The translations under genes and the position numbers were made by a program. Below are positions 1 through 8,825 of a stretch of DNA of 64,000 nucleotides, one piece after another. The notes under the pieces are model-generated. The model was given only the letters and a program-made list of their open reading frames with translations. It was not told where the DNA came from and searched no databases. Numbering within the stretch: the first letter of the stretch is position 1; each line of letters starts with the position of its first letter. Origin of the DNA: a bacterium ADurb.Bin236 (GTDB taxonomy: Bacteria > UBP15 > UBA6099); assembly GCA_002069885.1 (NCBI GenBank), contig MWCD01000003.1, positions 62,001 through 126,000 on the forward strand, read 5' to 3'.

Positions 1-573
1 GGCGGTGCGGTAGTGCGGCAGTATTCCTTTTACGGTGTATCTTCTTACAGTGGCTTTGCAGACGCCCATGATTTTTGCCGCCTCTTCAAGGGTGATTGTC
101 GGGTTCACGAGCCGTTCGATGATTTCCTCTCTGGACTGCTCGTGGTTGCGCCCTTTGGCGGAGAGGAGGGCTGCATCGGGCTTTTCGCGTCCGGCCACCC
201 GCTCTATTCCGGGCAGCCGCGCCTGTCTCAACGCCTGCGACTCTTCCTTTATGGTTTTTTTCGTTCTAGACGATTTCTCGGCGGCTTCCCACACGTCGCT
301 CACAGAAACAAAAGGCGAAGACAGAGAATCGAGGCTCTTGCGCTGAGGCTGGGCCATAGGAATAGGCTCTGCGGACATCTCCGGGCGGGGCGGCTCCGGC
401 TCGCGCTCTTCCGGCAATGAGGCCGGCGCGGCTCGCCTTTGAATCTTGTAGCGGTCTCCGCTTATCGACGGCACGTTGCGCCGAGGCTCTGACGGGACGG
501 ATATCTCGCGGCTCTGGCCGGATTTTTCCATCTGCTCTTTAACGTACTTTTGCCAGTCTTCGTATTTTTTCAC
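1..573 (-). CDS. HTH (MerR/excisionase-like) DNA-binding protein, C-terminus cut by window edge
   Basis: Reading the minus strand from a GTG at 571-573 gives 191 codons open to the window edge. A GGGAG ribosome site lies 9 nt upstream and an in-frame TAA lies further upstream. Residues 1 to about 155 are Lys/Glu/Pro-rich and look disordered. The last visible stretch contains TLEEAAKIMGVCKATVRRYT, which fits the helix-turn-helix of the MerR/excisionase (HTH_17) type, so DNA binding is inferred. It is the most distal visible gene of the operon that starts at mtnA, 48 nt after the acylphosphatase gene. Opposite-strand frames here show no family features. The family assignment rests on the HTH alone, and what follows it is outside the window. 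Confidence 0.6.
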   Translation of the reverse strand, partial: MKKYEDWQKYVKEQMEKSGQSREISVPSEPRRNVPSISGDRYKIQRRAAPASLPEEREPEPPRPEMSAEPIPMAQPQRKSLDSLSSPFVSVSDVWEAAEKSSRTKKTIKEESQALRQARLPGIERVAGREKPDAALLSAKGRNHEQSREEIIERLVNPTITLEEAAKIMGVCKATVRRYTVKGILPHYRTA

Positions 574-621
574 TTTTGAGCGCTCCCAGCCCGGACGAAA
601 TCCGAACAAAAAAAACTGCTG

Positions 622-1198: not shown

Positions 1199-3520
1199 TC
1201 AGGCCGGAGGAGCGGTTTCCCCGCCTTCAGGATCGAACACTTTTAGAAAAGCCGCGACCACCCTAGGATCGAACTGAGTGCCGCAGTGTTTCTTCACTTC
1301 CTGAATCGCTACCTCGTTGCTGAGCGCCTTCCTGTACGGCCTGTCCGAAGTCATCGCGTCAAAAGCGTCCGCAAGGTGCAGTATCCGGGCAAGCTCCGGT
1401 ATCTCGTCGCCCTTTATTCCGTCCGGATATCCGTATCCGTCGTACCGCTCGTGATGGTGACGGATTATCGGGCAGACTTCCTTCAGGAAAGGAACGGGCT
1501 GGATGATGGTCTCGCCGACGATGGGGTGCGATTTTATCATGTCGTACTCGTCGACGGTGAGCTTTGATTTCTTGCCTATGATGACCTCGCTGATGCCAAT
1601 CTTTCCGATGTCGTGCAGGTCGCTGGCATATTTGAGGAGGTCAAGCTCGTTTTCGTCCAGCCCGTACGCGCGGCCCACAGAAGCGGCGATCTCGCTGACC
1701 CGTTTCGAGTGGCCGTGTGTGTACTGGTCTTTCGCGTCTATCGCCATCGAGAGGGCCTGAATGGTGTTGAGATAATTTTCGCGCAAAGAGTGGAACAGGC
1801 GGGCGTTCTCTATGGCTCCGGCGGCCTGATTGGCGAATATCCCCAGAAGCCGTTTCTCGTCCTCCGTGAATATCCTCTTTTCTTTTGTGTACAGGTTAAG
1901 CACTCCGAGCACGGACACGTTGGTTATTAGCGGGATGCTGATGATGGACTTGACGCCGATGCTTCTGATGATGTGGTCGGGCTCGACCCTTTCATCAGTG
2001 TCCACATCCTCGATAATGACGGGGACGCGTTCCTTTATGGCGCGACCGCTAACTCCCTCTCCCGGCCGGGTCGGAGATTTCTTGATATATTCCTCCCCAA
2101 GCCCGCGGGATATCTTGACCGACATTTTGTTTGTCGCCGGGTCAAGCAGCTTTATCGAGCAGATGTCGATTCCGACTATCTTCACTATGGTGTCTACCAT
2201 CATGTTGAGCACTTCGTTTATATCCAGAGAAGTGGTAATGGCTTGAGTTACTTCTGCCAGAGATGTCAGTTCGCTGACTTTCTGGGACAGATCTCGGTTC
2301 GCCTGTTCCCGTTTCTGGGCATCGCTCTGAACCTGATTGAATGCTTCTTCGAGCTGGCTCTGATAAATTTTGAGAGCGTCGATTTTTGATTCGAGGTCGG
2401 CGCTCATACGGTTGAACGCCGAGGCTAGCCACCCGAACTCGTCTCTGCGATAGATTGTCACGCGCTGACTATAGTGGCCTTGGGAAATCTCTTCGGCGGC
2501 GCGTATAAGCTCGCCTATAGGGTAGGTTATCCTGCGGGCGCGGTACAACGCCAGATATATGGAAACCGCGAGGGCGAGAAGCCCCCACATGAATATCGTG
2601 TTCCTGACTTTGATGACAGGCGCGATAATTCTTTCATAAGGTTGGATGAGAATTAATTTCCAGCCCGCCGCCGGGTTTATCACCGCCGCCGCGACAATCT
2701 GTTTCTTCCCGTCTTCCTCGACTAGAAACTTGTCGGTCTTTCCCTGCTCGCCCGCCAGAATGCCTTTTCTGACTTTGTCGGACGCCGCGCTCAGAGGCAT
2801 CCCGGCTTCGAACACGCACTTGCCTATGGCGTCCGGGTCGGTGTGCGTCAGCACCACTCCGTCCCGGTTTATCAGGAACATGCGCATGTCCCCGCCCGCG
2901 ATTTCCTTCTTTTCGATAAGTTTTTCCATCGCCGCGATGTCGACTATCACCTCGGCGACCACCGCTCCGGCGGCGGCTTCAAAAGCCCCCGCGACTGGGA
3001 CCGCTATGAAGAACGCACCGGGCCGGTCGTAGTCCACCGCCTCTCCGGAAAACACTTTGGCCTTGAATTCCTTCATCGCCTCTTCCACATGTTCCGAGTT
3101 CGATATCTTGTCCAGCGACACGAAGGACTTCTCGTCGTAGTGGCTTGCGCTCACCATCTGCCGCTCGGCGTCGAGTATGAACAGGGCGTTTATGCTCGTC
3201 TGGGAAAAGCTCCTTCTAATCCTATTTTCAAGAGGGAATCCGATTTCCATGGACCTGACGTCGGAAAGGGAAGCCACTTCGGTTACATGGTCGATATGCG
3301 CGTCCAGATCCCGGCGGATCTCCTCGCTGAACACGCCCGCCAGAAGCTCTATCTTCTGGGTCATGTGTTCCTCGGCCATGCGGCGGGTGTGCGAATGGGC
3401 AATCCACATATAGACGCACGTCGAAACGAGCGACAGCAGCACGAATGACAGCAGCAGCTTGGTCCGCACTCCCCAAGACCTCAGAAAACTGTTTTTGCCG
3501 TTCTGCGCGACTCCCGCCAT
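1199..3520 (-). CDS. Membrane sensor HD-GYP phosphodiesterase (dCache-like/HAMP/GAF)
   Basis: 773 aa. Visible order: transmembrane helix at about 21-40, an extracytoplasmic ligand-binding region of about 260 residues (dCache-like), second helix about 307-326, HAMP about 328-378, short coiled coil, GAF about 420-575, then an HD-GYP domain about 585-760. The HD pair is H636-D637 in DLHDIGKIG, and the GYP signature is intact (HHHERYDGYGYPDG near 688-701), so it should be an active c-di-GMP phosphodiesterase. A periplasmic signal and a cytosolic GAF ligand would both feed into output. It lies 11 nt after the lytic transglycosylase gene, which suggests a link between envelope state and c-di-GMP. 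Ligands are unknown. Confidence 0.92.
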   Translation of the reverse strand: MAGVAQNGKNSFLRSWGVRTKLLLSFVLLSLVSTCVYMWIAHSHTRRMAEEHMTQKIELLAGVFSEEIRRDLDAHIDHVTEVASLSDVRSMEIGFPLENRIRRSFSQTSINALFILDAERQMVSASHYDEKSFVSLDKISNSEHVEEAMKEFKAKVFSGEAVDYDRPGAFFIAVPVAGAFEAAAGAVVAEVIVDIAAMEKLIEKKEIAGGDMRMFLINRDGVVLTHTDPDAIGKCVFEAGMPLSAASDKVRKGILAGEQGKTDKFLVEEDGKKQIVAAAVINPAAGWKLILIQPYERIIAPVIKVRNTIFMWGLLALAVSIYLALYRARRITYPIGELIRAAEEISQGHYSQRVTIYRRDEFGWLASAFNRMSADLESKIDALKIYQSQLEEAFNQVQSDAQKREQANRDLSQKVSELTSLAEVTQAITTSLDINEVLNMMVDTIVKIVGIDICSIKLLDPATNKMSVKISRGLGEEYIKKSPTRPGEGVSGRAIKERVPVIIEDVDTDERVEPDHIIRSIGVKSIISIPLITNVSVLGVLNLYTKEKRIFTEDEKRLLGIFANQAAGAIENARLFHSLRENYLNTIQALSMAIDAKDQYTHGHSKRVSEIAASVGRAYGLDENELDLLKYASDLHDIGKIGISEVIIGKKSKLTVDEYDMIKSHPIVGETIIQPVPFLKEVCPIIRHHHERYDGYGYPDGIKGDEIPELARILHLADAFDAMTSDRPYRKALSNEVAIQEVKKHCGTQFDPRVVAAFLKVFDPEGGETAPPA

Positions 3521-3531
3521 CCCCTATCGCC

Positions 3532-4203
3532 TCAATGACCGTACACGAAGAAGGTGTACAGTTTTTTCACTTTCGCGACATAGTCTATCGTCTCCCTGTA
3601 AGGAGGTATTCCCTTGTGCCTCGCGACCGCCTCCGGGCCTGCGTTGTAGCTGGCCAGCGCCAGTTCCAGCGCGCGCTCCGAATTCTGCCACCTCCGGTAT
3701 TGGTCGCTTAGATATTTCACTGTTCCGTAAATATTCTCCCTCGGATCGAAAGCGTTTCTGACGCCCAGCATGGCGGCGGTTCCGGGCATAAGCTGCCCCA
3801 GTCCCATCGCGCCTTTGGGCGACACCGCGTTCGGCTGAAACCTAGACTCGATCACGATGACCGACATCACCAGCCGGGGATCCACCTTCATCGCCGTAGA
3901 GTAATGCAGCACGTAACGCGCTATGTTAAGCGCCTGCCTTTCCGGCAGGTTTTTATTGTAATACCTGACTACGTTCATATAGTCGCTTTCGATTCTGGCT
4001 AACTCGTGGCTGAGAGTTATATCCTGCTGAAACGCTACCGGCATGCTTTCCGGCATAGCCTCAGGCCGGGTTTTCATGACGGCCTGCGCGGAAGCGACTT
4101 CCTCGCCGGACTGCTGCGCCGCCGCCGGAAACCCCGCCGCGACCATGAACGCCAATGCCGCCGCCAGCAGCGCGGCCGCCCTCCTCGCTCTCCTGTCCCT
4201 CAT
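3532..4203 (-). CDS. Lytic transglycosylase, SLT domain, exported
   Basis: 223 aa from the ATG at 4203, chosen because it forms an ATGA overlap with the TGA of the preceding gene and begins a clean signal peptide (basic MRDRRARR, then Ala/Leu-rich core ending near AAAQQ). A start at 4245 in the same frame is possible but would overlap 46 nt. The C-terminal half is a goose-lysozyme-like SLT domain: catalytic Glu in VIVIESRF, then GAMGLGQLMPGTA, NIYGTVKYL and ALASYNAGPEAV. It should cleave peptidoglycan glycan strands to anhydromuropeptides in the periplasm. Its place directly after the beta-propeller protein suggests that it may be regulated by, or be a partner of, that envelope signalling unit. 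Confidence 0.92.
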   Translation of the reverse strand: MRDRRARRAAALLAAALAFMVAAGFPAAAQQSGEEVASAQAVMKTRPEAMPESMPVAFQQDITLSHELARIESDYMNVVRYYNKNLPERQALNIARYVLHYSTAMKVDPRLVMSVIVIESRFQPNAVSPKGAMGLGQLMPGTAAMLGVRNAFDPRENIYGTVKYLSDQYRRWQNSERALELALASYNAGPEAVARHKGIPPYRETIDYVAKVKKLYTFFVYGH

Positions 4204-5900
4204 AGTTTCACCCGCCATATTTTTCCCTTGCACACGTTCTCGCAACCAGCGTCATAACTGTAGCGGTTGCTTCCCACTATATAAAGATACTGCCCCTTCG
4301 GGTCCAGTTTCACGCTCATAGGATAGTAAGACTGCAGGTCGTCCAGCGAATCCGGCGCGATTATTCCCGCTATCTTTCCCATCGGGTTGGCGATCAGCGC
4401 CCGCCTCGCCGCGGTGTCCGCTATGTAAACAAAACCCTGCGAATCCACAGCTATGCCCGACGGCTTGCTGAGCGATATCCTCGCGTTCTCTCCGTCTTTC
4501 TCCTCGAACAGTGTGAACGGAGTTATCTCTTTGCCCACTATCTTCAGCACCATTCCGGACAGTTTTAGCGTGACGAATATGTCGCCGGAGTCCGCAACCG
4601 CGATGCCATTAGGCTCCCTGTAGTTGCGCGGGATGTCGATAGTGCGCTGATGGGATCCGGACTTGTCGAACACCAACACCCTGTTGTTTCCCCTGTCGCA
4701 GACGTATATCAAATCTTTCGCCACGGCGATCGCCTTCGGGTTGCGCATAGTTATCCTTCCGCGCTTAGAGGGCATCTCTCCAGCCGGCTCTCCGTCCGTT
4801 CCTATGGCGAAAACCCGGTTGACGTTTATCGAGAAATCCGCCACATACAACTTGTCCTCGGAGACGTCTATTCCGGTCGGGAACCGTAGTTTGGTCTTTT
4901 CGCCTATGTAAGAACTGTCTCCCGTCGCGGGGTCGTGGCGAATGACCTGATCCCTGCCCACATCCACGATGTAGTAAATCCCGTCGTCGGATATATCTAT
5001 GTCATACGGAACGCGCAGGCCGTCGAGCGCGGTTTCCGGAAGGTACTTCTTGGTATCGGGTTGTATCTTTTCGATCGCCCGCTCGACGAGCGTCTTCTGT
5101 TTCTTCACGTAGCCGAGAGTGTTGGTCCTCACCGCCCTCATGATGTCTCCCCACAGGAACGGTATCATGATGACCACGGCCAGCGCGGCGACTATGCCGA
5201 AGTTGCGCATGTTGGCCGCAGCCGAGTTCCTTCTCTCGTTCTCCTCGAACTTGACAAGGAGCATCCTCGGATCGACCGTCTCCTCGTATCTGTTTGCCGT
5301 CATCTGGAGCTTGCCGCACGCCAAGTTCAGGTCCGGCTCGGTCAGCAGCATGTTTTTCAACTCCAGCCGGGACATGTGCTTGATCATGTTTTCCGAGCAC
5401 ATCGCCAAGCAGTCCCCGCTCCCGGCGGACACTGATTCGGCCTGCACGCTTTTCAGCCCGCGCTGCTCCGGCGTCTTGAACACCTGAAACAGTTTTCTAT
5501 CTTTCAGATAAAACAACGGGCACGCGTTTATGCGCGCGATGTGAAGCTGACCGTGTTTGACCAGCGCCACCGCGAAGGAATGGCGGGTTGACTGATGTTC
5601 CACTAGCCCTGCCGTTTCCAACTCCCGCTGAAGCCCTATCACGATGTCCCTTACGAACGCTTGAGGCTTCGATATCGACCCCACATCCGAGCTGTCCACG
5701 TACGGCGTGGCTTTCTCGGAAAGATATTCCATCCCTGCCCTCTCGGCTTCGGGCGAACACTCGTTGAAAAGCGCGAACAGCCCGAAGTCCAAGTCGGACG
5801 CGTTGGTGTCGTAGATGTAAACGCCCTGCCCGAACCGCGAGTCCGGCCCGCACGAGCCTACCAGCGTCCTGAACGATTTATGAGCGGTTTTGCTCCGCAT
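4200..5900 (-). CDS. Degenerate PP2C-like domain, TM helix and NHL-type beta-propeller
   Basis: 566 aa. Residues 1 to about 220 follow the PP2C phosphatase pattern but with the metal-binding acids changed: NECS at 46-49 where the family has DGMG, NACP at 125-128 for GDSR, SENM at 169-172 for SDGL, and DPRM at 210-213 for DNIT. I read this as a pseudophosphatase. One transmembrane helix follows at about 233-252. The remaining 300 residues contain repeated NHL-like blades (for example PYDIDISDDGIYYIVD, PSGIAVDSQGFVYIAD), predicted to be outside the cytoplasm. It starts 3 nt after the PP2C/PEGA gene and overlaps the transglycosylase start. The PP2C relation is my inference from motif positions; the propeller is firmer. 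Confidence 0.75.
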   Translation of the reverse strand: MRSKTAHKSFRTLVGSCGPDSRFGQGVYIYDTNASDLDFGLFALFNECSPEAERAGMEYLSEKATPYVDSSDVGSISKPQAFVRDIVIGLQRELETAGLVEHQSTRHSFAVALVKHGQLHIARINACPLFYLKDRKLFQVFKTPEQRGLKSVQAESVSAGSGDCLAMCSENMIKHMSRLELKNMLLTEPDLNLACGKLQMTANRYEETVDPRMLLVKFEENERRNSAAANMRNFGIVAALAVVIMIPFLWGDIMRAVRTNTLGYVKKQKTLVERAIEKIQPDTKKYLPETALDGLRVPYDIDISDDGIYYIVDVGRDQVIRHDPATGDSSYIGEKTKLRFPTGIDVSEDKLYVADFSINVNRVFAIGTDGEPAGEMPSKRGRITMRNPKAIAVAKDLIYVCDRGNNRVLVFDKSGSHQRTIDIPRNYREPNGIAVADSGDIFVTLKLSGMVLKIVGKEITPFTLFEEKDGENARISLSKPSGIAVDSQGFVYIADTAARRALIANPMGKIAGIIAPDSLDDLQSYYPMSVKLDPKGQYLYIVGSNRYSYDAGCENVCKGKIWRVKL

Positions 5901-5903
5901 ATC

Positions 5904-7727
5904 TTATTCTCGCTCCAGTTCGATTTCTATCAGCTTGAATTCTCCTTCGAGCGACACCGTCTTCCTCGCCGTCTTCCAGCCGGGTCTGGACACCTGAAAA
6001 ACGTATTCTCCCGGCTCTATGTCGTGCCGCGTGTCGCAGAACCCGGTCAGAGCCAGCTTGCCGTTCCTGAATATCATCAGCGTGCAGTTTCGCACGTTCG
6101 ATGTCACATTGAAATACGCTCTGTTCAACTTTGGCGCAGATGGCTCCGATCCTGCTCCTTCGACTTCTATCGCCGCCGGGTATCCCGTCTCCTTCGATGG
6201 GGATGTCGAAACAACCAGAGGCAAAGGAGGAGGAGGGGTTTCCGGGACCGCGCGCGGCGGCAGCTTCACAGGCTCCGCCTTTGCCGCGGTTTCCGCCCGC
6301 GTGTCGATTATCCTCTCTCCCTCAAACCTGAAAATTATCGACTGGGTTATCCCTGAAGCGATGTTGAGCGAGCGTCCCTCGGACTCCCGGCCTCTCGTCG
6401 CTTCCACATGATGCCGCCCCGGCGGTATCTGCCTAAGCAGTATCTCCTCTTTCGGAAACCCTTCCAGCCTCTTGTCGTCAAGATGAAGCGCGTCGCAGGC
6501 GGGCCTGCATAATATCAACAGCGAGCCGTTGTCCGGCGAAGACGGCAGCAGCGTTATCGACAGCTCGATACGCTCTCCGGGTTTCGGGTTCAGGACTTCC
6601 ATGTGCGGGTCGAACCCGTCCGCCTCGACCCTAAGCTCTATGCCGCCGTTTGCGGGAATCCCGAAAATCTTCCCCGGCTCGTAAATCTGCTGAACACCGT
6701 TCACGAACACCCTCGCTCCGGCTGGAGTCACTGAAATCGACACGCCCGCCTCTCCGCGCCTCAGGCCGGGAATCAAAATCCGCTCCCCGCTCGCGCCGCC
6801 GTCTTCCGAGACCGGAAGGGTTCCGGGCGTCTCGTCTTGCTTTGCCGCTCCGGGCAGCCGCGCGCCGAGATAAAACACCGCCCCCATCGCGCACAACATT
6901 ACGGCGACCGCAAGATATTTCTTCGTGTATGTGGAAACCGGATATTTTACTTTGATGTCCGGCATATGGGTTTTCGATTCCATGGATTCAATCTTGACTA
7001 TGACCACGCCCATGTCATCCTCTGAGCTTTTACCCGCGCCCGCTTCGGCCAGCATCGAGGATGCCGCCTCGTCTATCGTTCTTGAGACTGCCAGAATGTC
7101 CGCCGCCGACTTCTCGCGCAGCTTCGCGTCCAGTCCGTCTGACACGATGACCAGACAATCTCCGACCTGAATCCGCCTGTTGATGTAAACGGGATTGAAG
7201 CCTTCTGCGGGCCATCCGGTGGGAACAAGCCCTTCGGGCCGCTCTTTCGCTTCGCCGTCCTCCAGCGCGCCCAAATCCTGCTTGGGCGTCAACCGGGTCG
7301 CTTTCCCTTCCGCCACGATGTACGCCGCTCCGCCGCCTGCCGCCGCAAGATGCGCCGTTTCTCCTTCGATGTAGCCGCACACTATAGAAGCCGCAGACGC
7401 TTTCTTGTCCTCGCCTCCAGACTCGGCAAGCAGCCTCGCGTGTATCTCTTCTATGCATCCGGGCAGCAGGTTGTTTCCGTTCACGCTGTCCGACTCTCTG
7501 ATAAGTCGCATGGACTCCTTCAGGACGTTGACGGCCAGTTCGCTTGCCGCAGACGCTCGCGCGCCCATCCCGTCCGCTATCCCGAACAGAGCCTTGACCC
7601 GCCCCGGCCCGGAATACGAAACATTACAGATATATTCAGCGTTGAACTCGCGTCCCGCCCCTTTGACGGTCATTCCGGTTGTTCTTGCGGCCGGTCCTTT
7701 AACTTCAGGCGCCGCCGCGTTCATCAT
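5904..7727 (-). CDS. PP2C-family protein phosphatase with TM helix and PEGA domains
   Basis: 607 aa. The N-terminal 245 residues form a PP2C domain with metal-binding motifs kept: GIADGMG (D52), GDCLVIVSDGL (D197) and SEDDMGVVIV (D237-D238). It should dephosphorylate Ser/Thr phosphoproteins in the cytoplasm. A transmembrane helix lies at about 270-288. Beyond it are PEGA-type domains near 330-395, about 400-465 and about 537-600, separated by a Pro-rich linker; PEGA domains are extracytoplasmic beta-sandwiches often tied to surface structures. Its start overlaps the mtnA stop by 4 nt. It is followed immediately by a protein with the same cytosolic fold but eroded active site, so the two may form a heteromeric transmembrane complex (inference). 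No kinase gene is visible in the window. Confidence 0.85.
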   Translation of the reverse strand: MMNAAAPEVKGPAARTTGMTVKGAGREFNAEYICNVSYSGPGRVKALFGIADGMGARASAASELAVNVLKESMRLIRESDSVNGNNLLPGCIEEIHARLLAESGGEDKKASAASIVCGYIEGETAHLAAAGGGAAYIVAEGKATRLTPKQDLGALEDGEAKERPEGLVPTGWPAEGFNPVYINRRIQVGDCLVIVSDGLDAKLREKSAADILAVSRTIDEAASSMLAEAGAGKSSEDDMGVVIVKIESMESKTHMPDIKVKYPVSTYTKKYLAVAVMLCAMGAVFYLGARLPGAAKQDETPGTLPVSEDGGASGERILIPGLRRGEAGVSISVTPAGARVFVNGVQQIYEPGKIFGIPANGGIELRVEADGFDPHMEVLNPKPGERIELSITLLPSSPDNGSLLILCRPACDALHLDDKRLEGFPKEEILLRQIPPGRHHVEATRGRESEGRSLNIASGITQSIIFRFEGERIIDTRAETAAKAEPVKLPPRAVPETPPPPLPLVVSTSPSKETGYPAAIEVEGAGSEPSAPKLNRAYFNVTSNVRNCTLMIFRNGKLALTGFCDTRHDIEPGEYVFQVSRPGWKTARKTVSLEGEFKLIEIELERE

Positions 7728-8758
7728 CTCTTGCAGGCCAATCTCTTTATTTTGTTCGCGTTCGGAGCCTTCGCCACCCCGCGCTCGGTTATTATCGCTG
7801 TCGCCAGTTCTGCGGGGGTCACATCAAACGCCGGGTTATAGACCTCAGTCTCGTCCGGGCAGATTTTCACTCCGTTAATAACTCTCACCTCGCGCTCTTC
7901 CCGCGTCTCAATCACGATTCCCGCGCCGTCCGCCGTAGCCATGTCTATCGTGGACACCGGAGCGGCCACGTAGAAAGGAACCCCGTGCGCCCGCGCAAGA
8001 ACCGCCAGACCGTACGTGCCCGTCTTGTTTGCGAAATCGCCGTTCGCCGCTATCCTGTCCGCCCCCACCACCACCGCGTCCACCTCGCCGCGCGCCATCA
8101 GCGCCCCGGCCATATTGTCGCATATCAATATCGCCGGTATCTTCTCTATCGCCAGCTCAAAAGCCGTCAGTTTCGCGCCCTGAAGCCACGGCCTCGTCTC
8201 GTCCACATACACCCGCTCTATCTTTCCGGCATCCCGCGCCGCGCGTATCACTCCCAGCGCCGTGCCATACCCCGCCGTCGCCAGCCCCCCCGCGTTGCAG
8301 TGGGTTAGAACGCGGCTGTTTTTCTTCAGCAACTTAGCCCCGAAAGCCCCTATAGCCCGGCAGGCTTCCACGTCTTCCCGCCTTATCTTTTCCGCCTCAG
8401 CAACCATCGCCTTCCTGACATTCTCTACCGAACCGCTCTTTGCCGCGACAGATTTCATTCTCGCCAGAGCCCAGAATAGATTCACCGCAGTCGGCCTTGT
8501 AGACGCCAGAAGCTCCGCCGCAGATTCCAGAGCCGCGTTCAACTTTCCCCTGTCCGCCCCCTTAAACTTGACCGCCGCCAGCGCCATCCCCATAGCGGCT
8601 GTCACTCCTATCGCCGGCGCTCCCCTCACCTTCATTCCCACAATAGCGGAGGCGACGGACTCCACCGTCTTCAATTCGATATAGTTGAGTTTGTTCGGAA
8701 GCAGAGTCTGATCAATCAGCCTGACCGCTCCGCTTTTTACCCATGACACTGTTTCCAA
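7724..8758 (-). CDS. mtnA: S-methyl-5-thioribose-1-phosphate isomerase
   Basis: 344 aa from a TTG at 8756-8758, preferred because GGGAG lies 6 nt upstream; the ATG at 8812 would sit only about 7-14 nt from the predicted transcription start and adds an atypical Trp-rich leader. The enzyme isomerises methylthioribose-1-phosphate to methylthioribulose-1-phosphate in methionine salvage. Family motifs: VRGAPAIGVTAAMG, the catalytic Cys in LTHCNAGGLAT, VDETRPWLQGAKLTAFEL, and the catalytic Asp in VVGADRIAANGDFANKTGTY. It heads an operon otherwise made of signalling and envelope genes, which is odd for a salvage enzyme. No other methionine salvage genes are nearby. Confidence 0.93.
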   Translation of the reverse strand: METVSWVKSGAVRLIDQTLLPNKLNYIELKTVESVASAIVGMKVRGAPAIGVTAAMGMALAAVKFKGADRGKLNAALESAAELLASTRPTAVNLFWALARMKSVAAKSGSVENVRKAMVAEAEKIRREDVEACRAIGAFGAKLLKKNSRVLTHCNAGGLATAGYGTALGVIRAARDAGKIERVYVDETRPWLQGAKLTAFELAIEKIPAILICDNMAGALMARGEVDAVVVGADRIAANGDFANKTGTYGLAVLARAHGVPFYVAAPVSTIDMATADGAGIVIETREEREVRVINGVKICPDETEVYNPAFDVTPAELATAIITERGVAKAPNANKIKRLACKR

Positions 8759-8825
8759 AGCAAGCTCCCGACGCCATATGATGTCAAAGTATAATTCCCA
8801 AAACTTGAACAACTGCCGTCGGTCT

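Follow-up and report, generated by a model that had tools for sequence, protein, structure and literature searches.

Bacterial PP2C phosphatases of the Stp1, PrpC and PstP type hold their metals through the aspartates of motifs 2, 5, 8 and 11, the third metal has been described as not indispensable, and PstP is anchored in the membrane (PMC12088040). In SpoIIE, which is considered here together with RsbU and RsbX, the metal aspartates are D628, D746 and D795, and the enzyme is activated by PP2C-to-PP2C contacts through switch helices (PMC5468089). The M. tuberculosis receptor PknD carries a cytosolic kinase domain, one helix and an outer six-blade NHL propeller (1rwl; PMC1262709). PP2C folds without activity are represented by the eukaryotic proteins TAB1 and PHLPP2, the latter of which has been called a pseudophosphatase (PMC12002173).

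The locus described here encodes two adjacent predicted membrane proteins, one with a PP2C domain and outer PEGA domains (PP2C-PEGA) and one with an outer NHL propeller and a cytosolic PP2C-fold domain without catalytic residues (pseudo-PP2C-NHL; its cytosolic domain is called the dead domain below). The fold of Stp1, PrpC and PstP appears to be common to both cytosolic domains, according to a structural model for the dead one and to sequence for the live-looking one. PP2C-PEGA aligns over the whole Stp1 profile, and both proteins are, by hydropathy, membrane-anchored as PstP is. In contrast to these phosphatases, the dead domain lacks the catalytic motifs and the flap, the live-looking domain lacks the motif 5 aspartate, and the outer parts are PEGA and NHL domains. 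PP2C-PEGA has the three-aspartate metal set in common with SpoIIE, RsbU and RsbX, whose dimer switch-helix regulation is the template for the mechanism proposed below (PMC5468089), whereas its match to Pfam SpoIIE is under the cut-off and true SpoIIE proteins are encoded elsewhere in these genomes. The pseudo-PP2C-NHL protein resembles PknD in the order of cytosolic signaling domain, single helix and six-blade propeller, but has a dead PP2C fold where PknD has a kinase. The dead domain is comparable to TAB1 and PHLPP2 in its predicted lack of activity, whereas those proteins are eukaryotic, are not propeller membrane receptors and have no PP2C gene next to theirs in an operon. As in the PrkC-PrpC and PknB-PstP systems, a PASTA-kinase homologue, located after fmt-rsmB-like genes, and an Stp1-like PP2C are encoded in the phylum; here, however, the HRD aspartate is missing from the kinase, and the PP2C gene lies at another locus and has another anchor.

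The PP2C pseudophosphatases found in the open-access literature were all eukaryotic, and no bacterial one with such a layout was found described there. A 2025 survey of bacterial PP2C families mentions neither NHL, PEGA nor inactive members, and in a 2025 survey of bacterial pseudokinases PASTA appears only in a reference title. New here would be a pseudophosphatase in the form of a transmembrane PP2C-fold receptor, a dead domain that is not its neighbor's copy, dead PP2Cs fused to kinases, and a PASTA pseudokinase.

Organization and conservation of the locus

The window is the whole stretch of 64,000 nucleotides that was analyzed, and it belongs to a draft genome (G000) of the UBP15 phylum, genomes of which are known from anaerobic digestion sludge (PMC13248872). 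The comparison covered seven genomes of the phylum, G000 included. The features of the locus are as follows.

1199..3520 (-): dCache-HAMP-GAF-HD-GYP membrane protein, last of the four conserved genes (Pfam)
3532..4203 (-): lytic transglycosylase (SLT) with an N-terminal signal-like segment (Pfam SLT, E 5e-24)
4200..5900 (-): gene for the pseudo-PP2C, membrane helix and NHL propeller protein, 566 aa (ORF; Pfam NHL, E 8e-20)
4203..5048 (-): six-blade NHL beta-propeller, predicted periplasmic, residues 285-566 (Pfam NHL; model pLDDT 93.3)
5139..5195 (-): its single predicted transmembrane helix, residues ~236-254 (hydropathy peak 2.3)
5235..5834 (-): its cytosolic PP2C-fold domain without catalytic residues, residues ~23-222 (AlphaFold2 model, PDB matches, alignment, dN/dS)
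5904..7727 (-): gene for the PP2C, membrane helix and PEGA protein, 607 aa (ORF; PEGA E 6e-8; PP2C_2 E 1e-4)
6543..6743 (-): best-scoring PEGA domain, predicted periplasmic, residues 329-395 (Pfam PF08308)
6861..6917 (-): single predicted transmembrane helix of PP2C-PEGA, residues ~271-289 (hydropathy)
6987..7670 (-): PP2C domain with D52, D197 and D237 kept, E31 in motif 1 and GGGA for GDSR (profile match and alignments)
7724..8812 (-): MtnA/eIF-2B-like gene directly upstream of PP2C-PEGA (Pfam IF-2B, E 9e-87)

An earlier note on this DNA had read the locus as adjacent live and dead PP2C phosphatases, both anchored in the membrane. Both open reading frames lie where it placed them. The DGMG (D52) and SDGL (D197) motifs of PP2C-PEGA were found as it had described, together with D237 in SEDD, followed by the helix and PEGA, and the NECS, NACP, SENM and DPRM sequences of the 4200-5900 protein occupy the aligned positions ahead of its helix and propeller. 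For both proteins, the predicted topology is a cytosolic domain, one helix and an outer part; the pseudo-PP2C orthologues in G005 and G006 likewise have one helix by hydropathy. Two PEGA stretches in all were detected by Pfam in PP2C-PEGA, and PEGA is also present in its orthologues in G005 and G006. In a Foldseek search, the propeller model matched the M. tuberculosis PknD sensor (1rwl, E 1.5e-13) and the six-blade Pizza6 designs. Thus, like a PknD-type receptor, the 4200-5900 protein has one helix and, after it, a six-blade NHL propeller, whereas a PP2C fold stands in place of the cytosolic Ser/Thr kinase domain.

The genes are tightly packed. The stop codon of the mtnA-like gene overlaps the PP2C-PEGA start by 4 bp (ATGA), 3 bp separate PP2C-PEGA from the pseudo-PP2C gene, the pseudo-PP2C stop codon overlaps the SLT start by 4 bp (ATGA), and an 11-bp gap precedes the HD-GYP gene, the product of which is likely to be a c-di-GMP phosphodiesterase. 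The order PP2C-PEGA, pseudo-PP2C-NHL, SLT, HD-GYP is kept in G000-G003 and G005, and G006 shows the same order from the PEGA part on, the PP2C part being off the contig; across families the proteins are 25-45% identical. The adjacency of the two PP2C-type genes, whose co-occurrence in other genomes the earlier note had proposed to check, is thus maintained across three families, and the SLT and HD-GYP genes occupy the same position in G005 and G006. The MtnA/eIF-2B-like gene also lies directly upstream of PP2C-PEGA in G005. Downstream of the HD-GYP gene, an HTH_17/MerR-like DNA-binding protein is encoded in the genus, G005 and G006; in the window this gene lies at ~1-585 (-) and runs off the left edge (counterpart L023:15567-16247(+)).

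Orthologues of pseudo-PP2C-NHL were found in six of the seven phylum genomes, the seventh being only 80% complete; they span three families and amount in effect to no more than three divergent sequences. A one-gene search of genome contigs gave matches in the same genus only, and no second protein combining a PP2C fold with an NHL propeller was found outside the phylum among the 386 genomes searched, which are a sample.

A predicted PP2C fold without catalytic residues

The AlphaFold2 model of residues 1-228 of the 4200-5900 protein, built from the six orthologues, had a pLDDT of 72.5 and a pTM of 0.74. PP2C phosphatases were the best Foldseek matches throughout (1.3e-9 to tPphA), and in the VIA search the model matched S. 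aureus Stp1 with a Z of 17.0 over 184 residues at 2.8 A; TAB1 (2pop) was also among the VIA matches (Z 13.5). The top matches of both searches were PPM phosphatases, as expected of the PP2C/PPM beta-sandwich. The guess of a PP2C fold, made from the sequence in the earlier note, is thus supported by the structure prediction.

By sequence, the dead-domain profile scored real PP2Cs at 13-29 bits, whereas none of 1139 scored shuffles exceeded 6 bits, and its matches outside the phylum were PP2C-type domains. With Pfam, residues 1-228 of the window's protein gave no match, and one orthologue matched at E 0.23. The profile-profile match between the dead domain and the neighboring PP2C was in register but spanned only 51 columns at 25% probability; therefore, the homology of the two domains rests on the fold and on other PP2Cs.

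The catalytic motifs are lost in every family. In the alignment, motif 2 (DGMG) is replaced by NECS in the genus (residues 46-49), SGMA in G005 and NGDR in G006; motif 5 (GDSR) by NACP (125-128), NECP and RNCP; motif 8 (SDGL) by SENM (169-172), NEDM and SQDM; and motif 11 (DN) by DP (within DPR, 210-212), TP and AP, respectively. The metal aspartate positions accordingly read, for genus, G005 and G006, N/S/N in motif 2, A/E/N in motif 5, E/E/Q in motif 8 and D/T/A in motif 11. None of the six orthologues from the three families keeps the metal aspartate set, and the flap segment is missing from the alignment in all three families. Neither an N-terminal fold unrelated to PP2C nor a homologue with the metal aspartates, either of which would have spoken against a dead phosphatase, was encountered. 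Conserved residues were not enriched at the former catalytic positions (P 0.12); there is thus no sign of a repurposed pocket, and this candidate explanation was rejected.

Selection on the dead domain and its relation to other PP2Cs

Within the genus, comparison of species shows 1 non-synonymous change in the 228 codons of the dead domain against 14-16 synonymous ones (dN/dS 0.017-0.020), whereas the neighboring PP2C domain, with a similar dS, has 9-10 non-synonymous changes (dN/dS 0.11-0.16). These counts are low, yet all three comparisons point the same way. The values for the rest of the propeller protein and for the transglycosylase were 0.03-0.07 and 0.07-0.13, respectively, so that the dead domain has the lowest dN/dS among the operon parts measured. 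Its identity across families is 33-43%. These results indicate that the dead domain is under very strong purifying selection. A decaying pseudogene was rejected on the basis of the dN/dS of ~0.02 and the full-length reading frames in six genomes. The 4200-5900 protein thus combines a predicted phosphatase fold, loss of the catalytic residues and purifying selection, three features expected of a pseudophosphatase.

The dead-domain profile scored its own neighbor at 0-19 bits, as against 25-34 bits for most other PP2C domains. In a tree, the dead domain groups with dead PP2C domains fused to kinases (89/95) and not with its neighbor, a grouping that carries a long-branch warning. On these comparisons, in which other PP2Cs match better, we do not regard the dead domain as a copy of its neighbor, and a recent tandem duplication was rejected as unsupported. 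The earlier picture of a simple live/dead duplicate is accordingly weakened, the dead domain being nearer to canonical PP2Cs and to kinase-fused dead ones than to its neighbor. Since the neighbor is not the closest in sequence, a dimer interface common to both cannot be taken for granted.

The PP2C-PEGA neighbor

In a profile search, PP2C-PEGA matched S. aureus Stp1 (E 2e-11). Its score against NCBIfam Stp1_PP2C_phos was 50.7 bits over 232 positions (cut-off 230, not reached) and that against Pfam SpoIIE was 17.5 bits (cut-off 25, not reached); the window's copy is also under the Pfam PP2C_2 cut-off. The aspartates of motifs 2, 8 and 11 (D52, D197 and D237) are kept in all five PP2C-PEGA sequences and correspond by motif to D628, D746 and D795 of SpoIIE. 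Conversely, the motif 1 aspartate is missing (NAE, with E31), as is the third-metal aspartate of motif 5 (GGGA for GDSR). Because the three SpoIIE-type aspartates are kept with a glutamate in motif 1 and GGGA in motif 5, an enzyme with a two-metal centre is likely, if unproven. The glutamate and the loss of the motif 5 aspartate also mean that the "live" label is probable rather than proven, and that the enzyme could be weak or inactive. Thus, the dead half of the live/dead pair is borne out by the lost motifs, whereas the live half is weakened.

A putative PASTA pseudokinase and kinase-fused dead PP2C domains

A homologue of the PASTA kinase is encoded in four genomes of the phylum.

L056:2610-4676 (+): PASTA kinase homologue of G001 (G001:C41)
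L071: PASTA kinase homologue of G002
L058:2849-4918: PASTA kinase homologue of G005
L060, minus strand: PASTA kinase homologue of G006

In all four, HRDxxxxN is replaced by HGQFSPRS, HGLLTPES or HGLLTTES, with loss of the aspartate and the following asparagine, both of which are retained in the two reference kinases of the alignment. The VAIK-type lysine and the aspartate of DFG are retained, and the G001 protein scores 310 bits against PknB_PASTA_kin. By these motifs, the PASTA kinase of the phylum is a pseudokinase. The G001 gene directly follows genes that we take to be fmt-like and rsmB-like, with no PP2C gene beside it. All four genomes with this gene also have the pseudo-PP2C. No PASTA match was found in G000, in which the whole 6-kb fmt-rsmB-PASTA stretch of G001 is likewise unmatched; this indicates a gap in the draft, so that the absence there says nothing. 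At a separate locus in G005 (L057:2459-5300(-), G005:C78), an active-looking kinase (HRDLKPEN, DFG) adjoins a canonical PP2C (GDSR, SDGL, DN).

In a second small phylum, all four genomes encode kinase-like domains, a dead PP2C domain and TPR repeats in one protein.

L054:2765-6556 (-), L055 (minus strand), L090 and L091: kinase-fused dead PP2C proteins, frames of 1177-1373 aa

The kinase-like domains, three of which are found in L054, have degenerate motifs. The fused PP2C domains have SGIG or QGVG for DGMG and TGNL or TSDL for SDGL, and the flap is missing in both aligned copies.

Proposed mechanism and alternative explanations

The dead domain has no catalytic residues, yet no other measured part of the operon is conserved as strictly; its role is therefore probably that of a regulator and not of an enzyme. 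Our preferred reading, held tentatively at somewhat short of an even chance, takes the 4200-5900 protein for a transmembrane pseudophosphatase receptor through which an envelope signal would control a partner, most likely PP2C-PEGA. The periplasmic NHL propeller would bind an envelope ligand or protein, and the cytosolic PP2C fold, unable to hold the catalytic metals, would serve as a binding surface and set the activity of a signaling partner, most likely the co-encoded phosphatase. The contact may be made by packing on the switch helices of PP2C-PEGA, as between SpoIIE protomers; the adjacent PP2C is the most likely target because contact between PP2Cs through these helices is a known control of PP2C activity (PMC5468089). 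The pathway would end in the dephosphorylation of a Ser/Thr phosphoprotein that is connected with wall turnover, as suggested by the lytic transglycosylase and HD-GYP protein of the operon. Since SpoIIE-type phosphatases and RsbW-type ATPases are encoded elsewhere in all seven phylum genomes, STAS-type substrates are also possible. We infer the direct contact, the direction of control, the ligand and the substrate.

Instead of the adjacent phosphatase, the pseudo-PP2C may partner the PASTA pseudokinase or a phosphoprotein. The two dead enzymes, kinase and phosphatase, would each have an outer sensor of their own and would dock on one another or on shared clients, as a relay without catalysis. 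The loss of HRDxxxxN from a protein otherwise recognizable as a PASTA kinase, the fmt-rsmB position of the G001 gene away from any PP2C gene, the presence of the pseudo-PP2C in all four genomes concerned and the fusion of dead PP2C to degenerate kinase domains in the second phylum are consistent with such a relay. We nevertheless regard it as unlikely, as the pseudokinase is encoded elsewhere in the genome whereas only 3 bp lie between the PP2C-PEGA and pseudo-PP2C genes, and the grouping with the kinase-fused domains carries the long-branch warning. We consider it quite unlikely that the cytosolic domain is only an anchor or stabilizer for a periplasmic propeller that scaffolds wall enzymes without phosphosignaling. 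The overlap of the SLT gene with the pseudo-PP2C stop codon would fit this, and NHL propellers are known as protein-binding scaffolds; however, the remainder of the protein is under less constraint (dN/dS 0.03-0.07) than the dead domain (0.02), and the 33-43% identity of the dead domain across families is unlike that of a passive anchor.

Two further alternatives concern catalysis itself. Both PP2C domains could be non-catalytic, or nearly so, and form a heteromer of pseudoenzymes that would read phosphorylation and leave it in place. E31, GGGA and the scores of the window's PP2C-PEGA below the PP2C_2, SpoIIE and Stp1 cut-offs point in this direction, but the conservation of D52, D197 and D237 in five of five sequences, the set used by SpoIIE (PMC5468089), and the description of the third metal as not indispensable (PMC12088040) make it very unlikely. 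Conversely, the dead domain could retain low activity through a divergent metal site, since E170 and D210 could bind metal in the window's genus. This is most improbable: the first-shell aspartate of motif 2 is N or S, the last position is T in G005 and A in G006, motif 8 has Q in G006, and the flap is missing.

The data support the PP2C fold of the dead domain, the phylum-wide loss of its catalytic residues, the very strong purifying selection and the lasting adjacency of the two genes; the signaling complex that the earlier note proposed, with sensing by the outer domains and control of the active domain by the dead one, is a hypothesis, and the PASTA pseudokinase is another possible partner. 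A broader and doubtful reading is that in this phylum a PrkC/PrpC-type Ser/Thr axis has been rebuilt on two envelope receptors, the PASTA pseudokinase and the propeller pseudophosphatase, which would control one remaining PP2C with no cognate active Hanks kinase, the kinase-fused dead PP2Cs of the other phylum being a parallel.

Implications

PP2C pseudophosphatases are known in animals (TAB1 and PHLPP2), and bacterial pseudokinases have lately been catalogued. A dead PP2C that is fixed in a phylum and more constrained than its active-looking neighbor would mean that control by pseudoenzymes also reaches the Ser/Thr phosphatases of bacteria, and the pair would offer a concrete case for asking whether a non-catalytic receptor partner can set PP2C activity. 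The findings would also raise the question of what use a PASTA kinase without the HRD aspartate is to the phylum.
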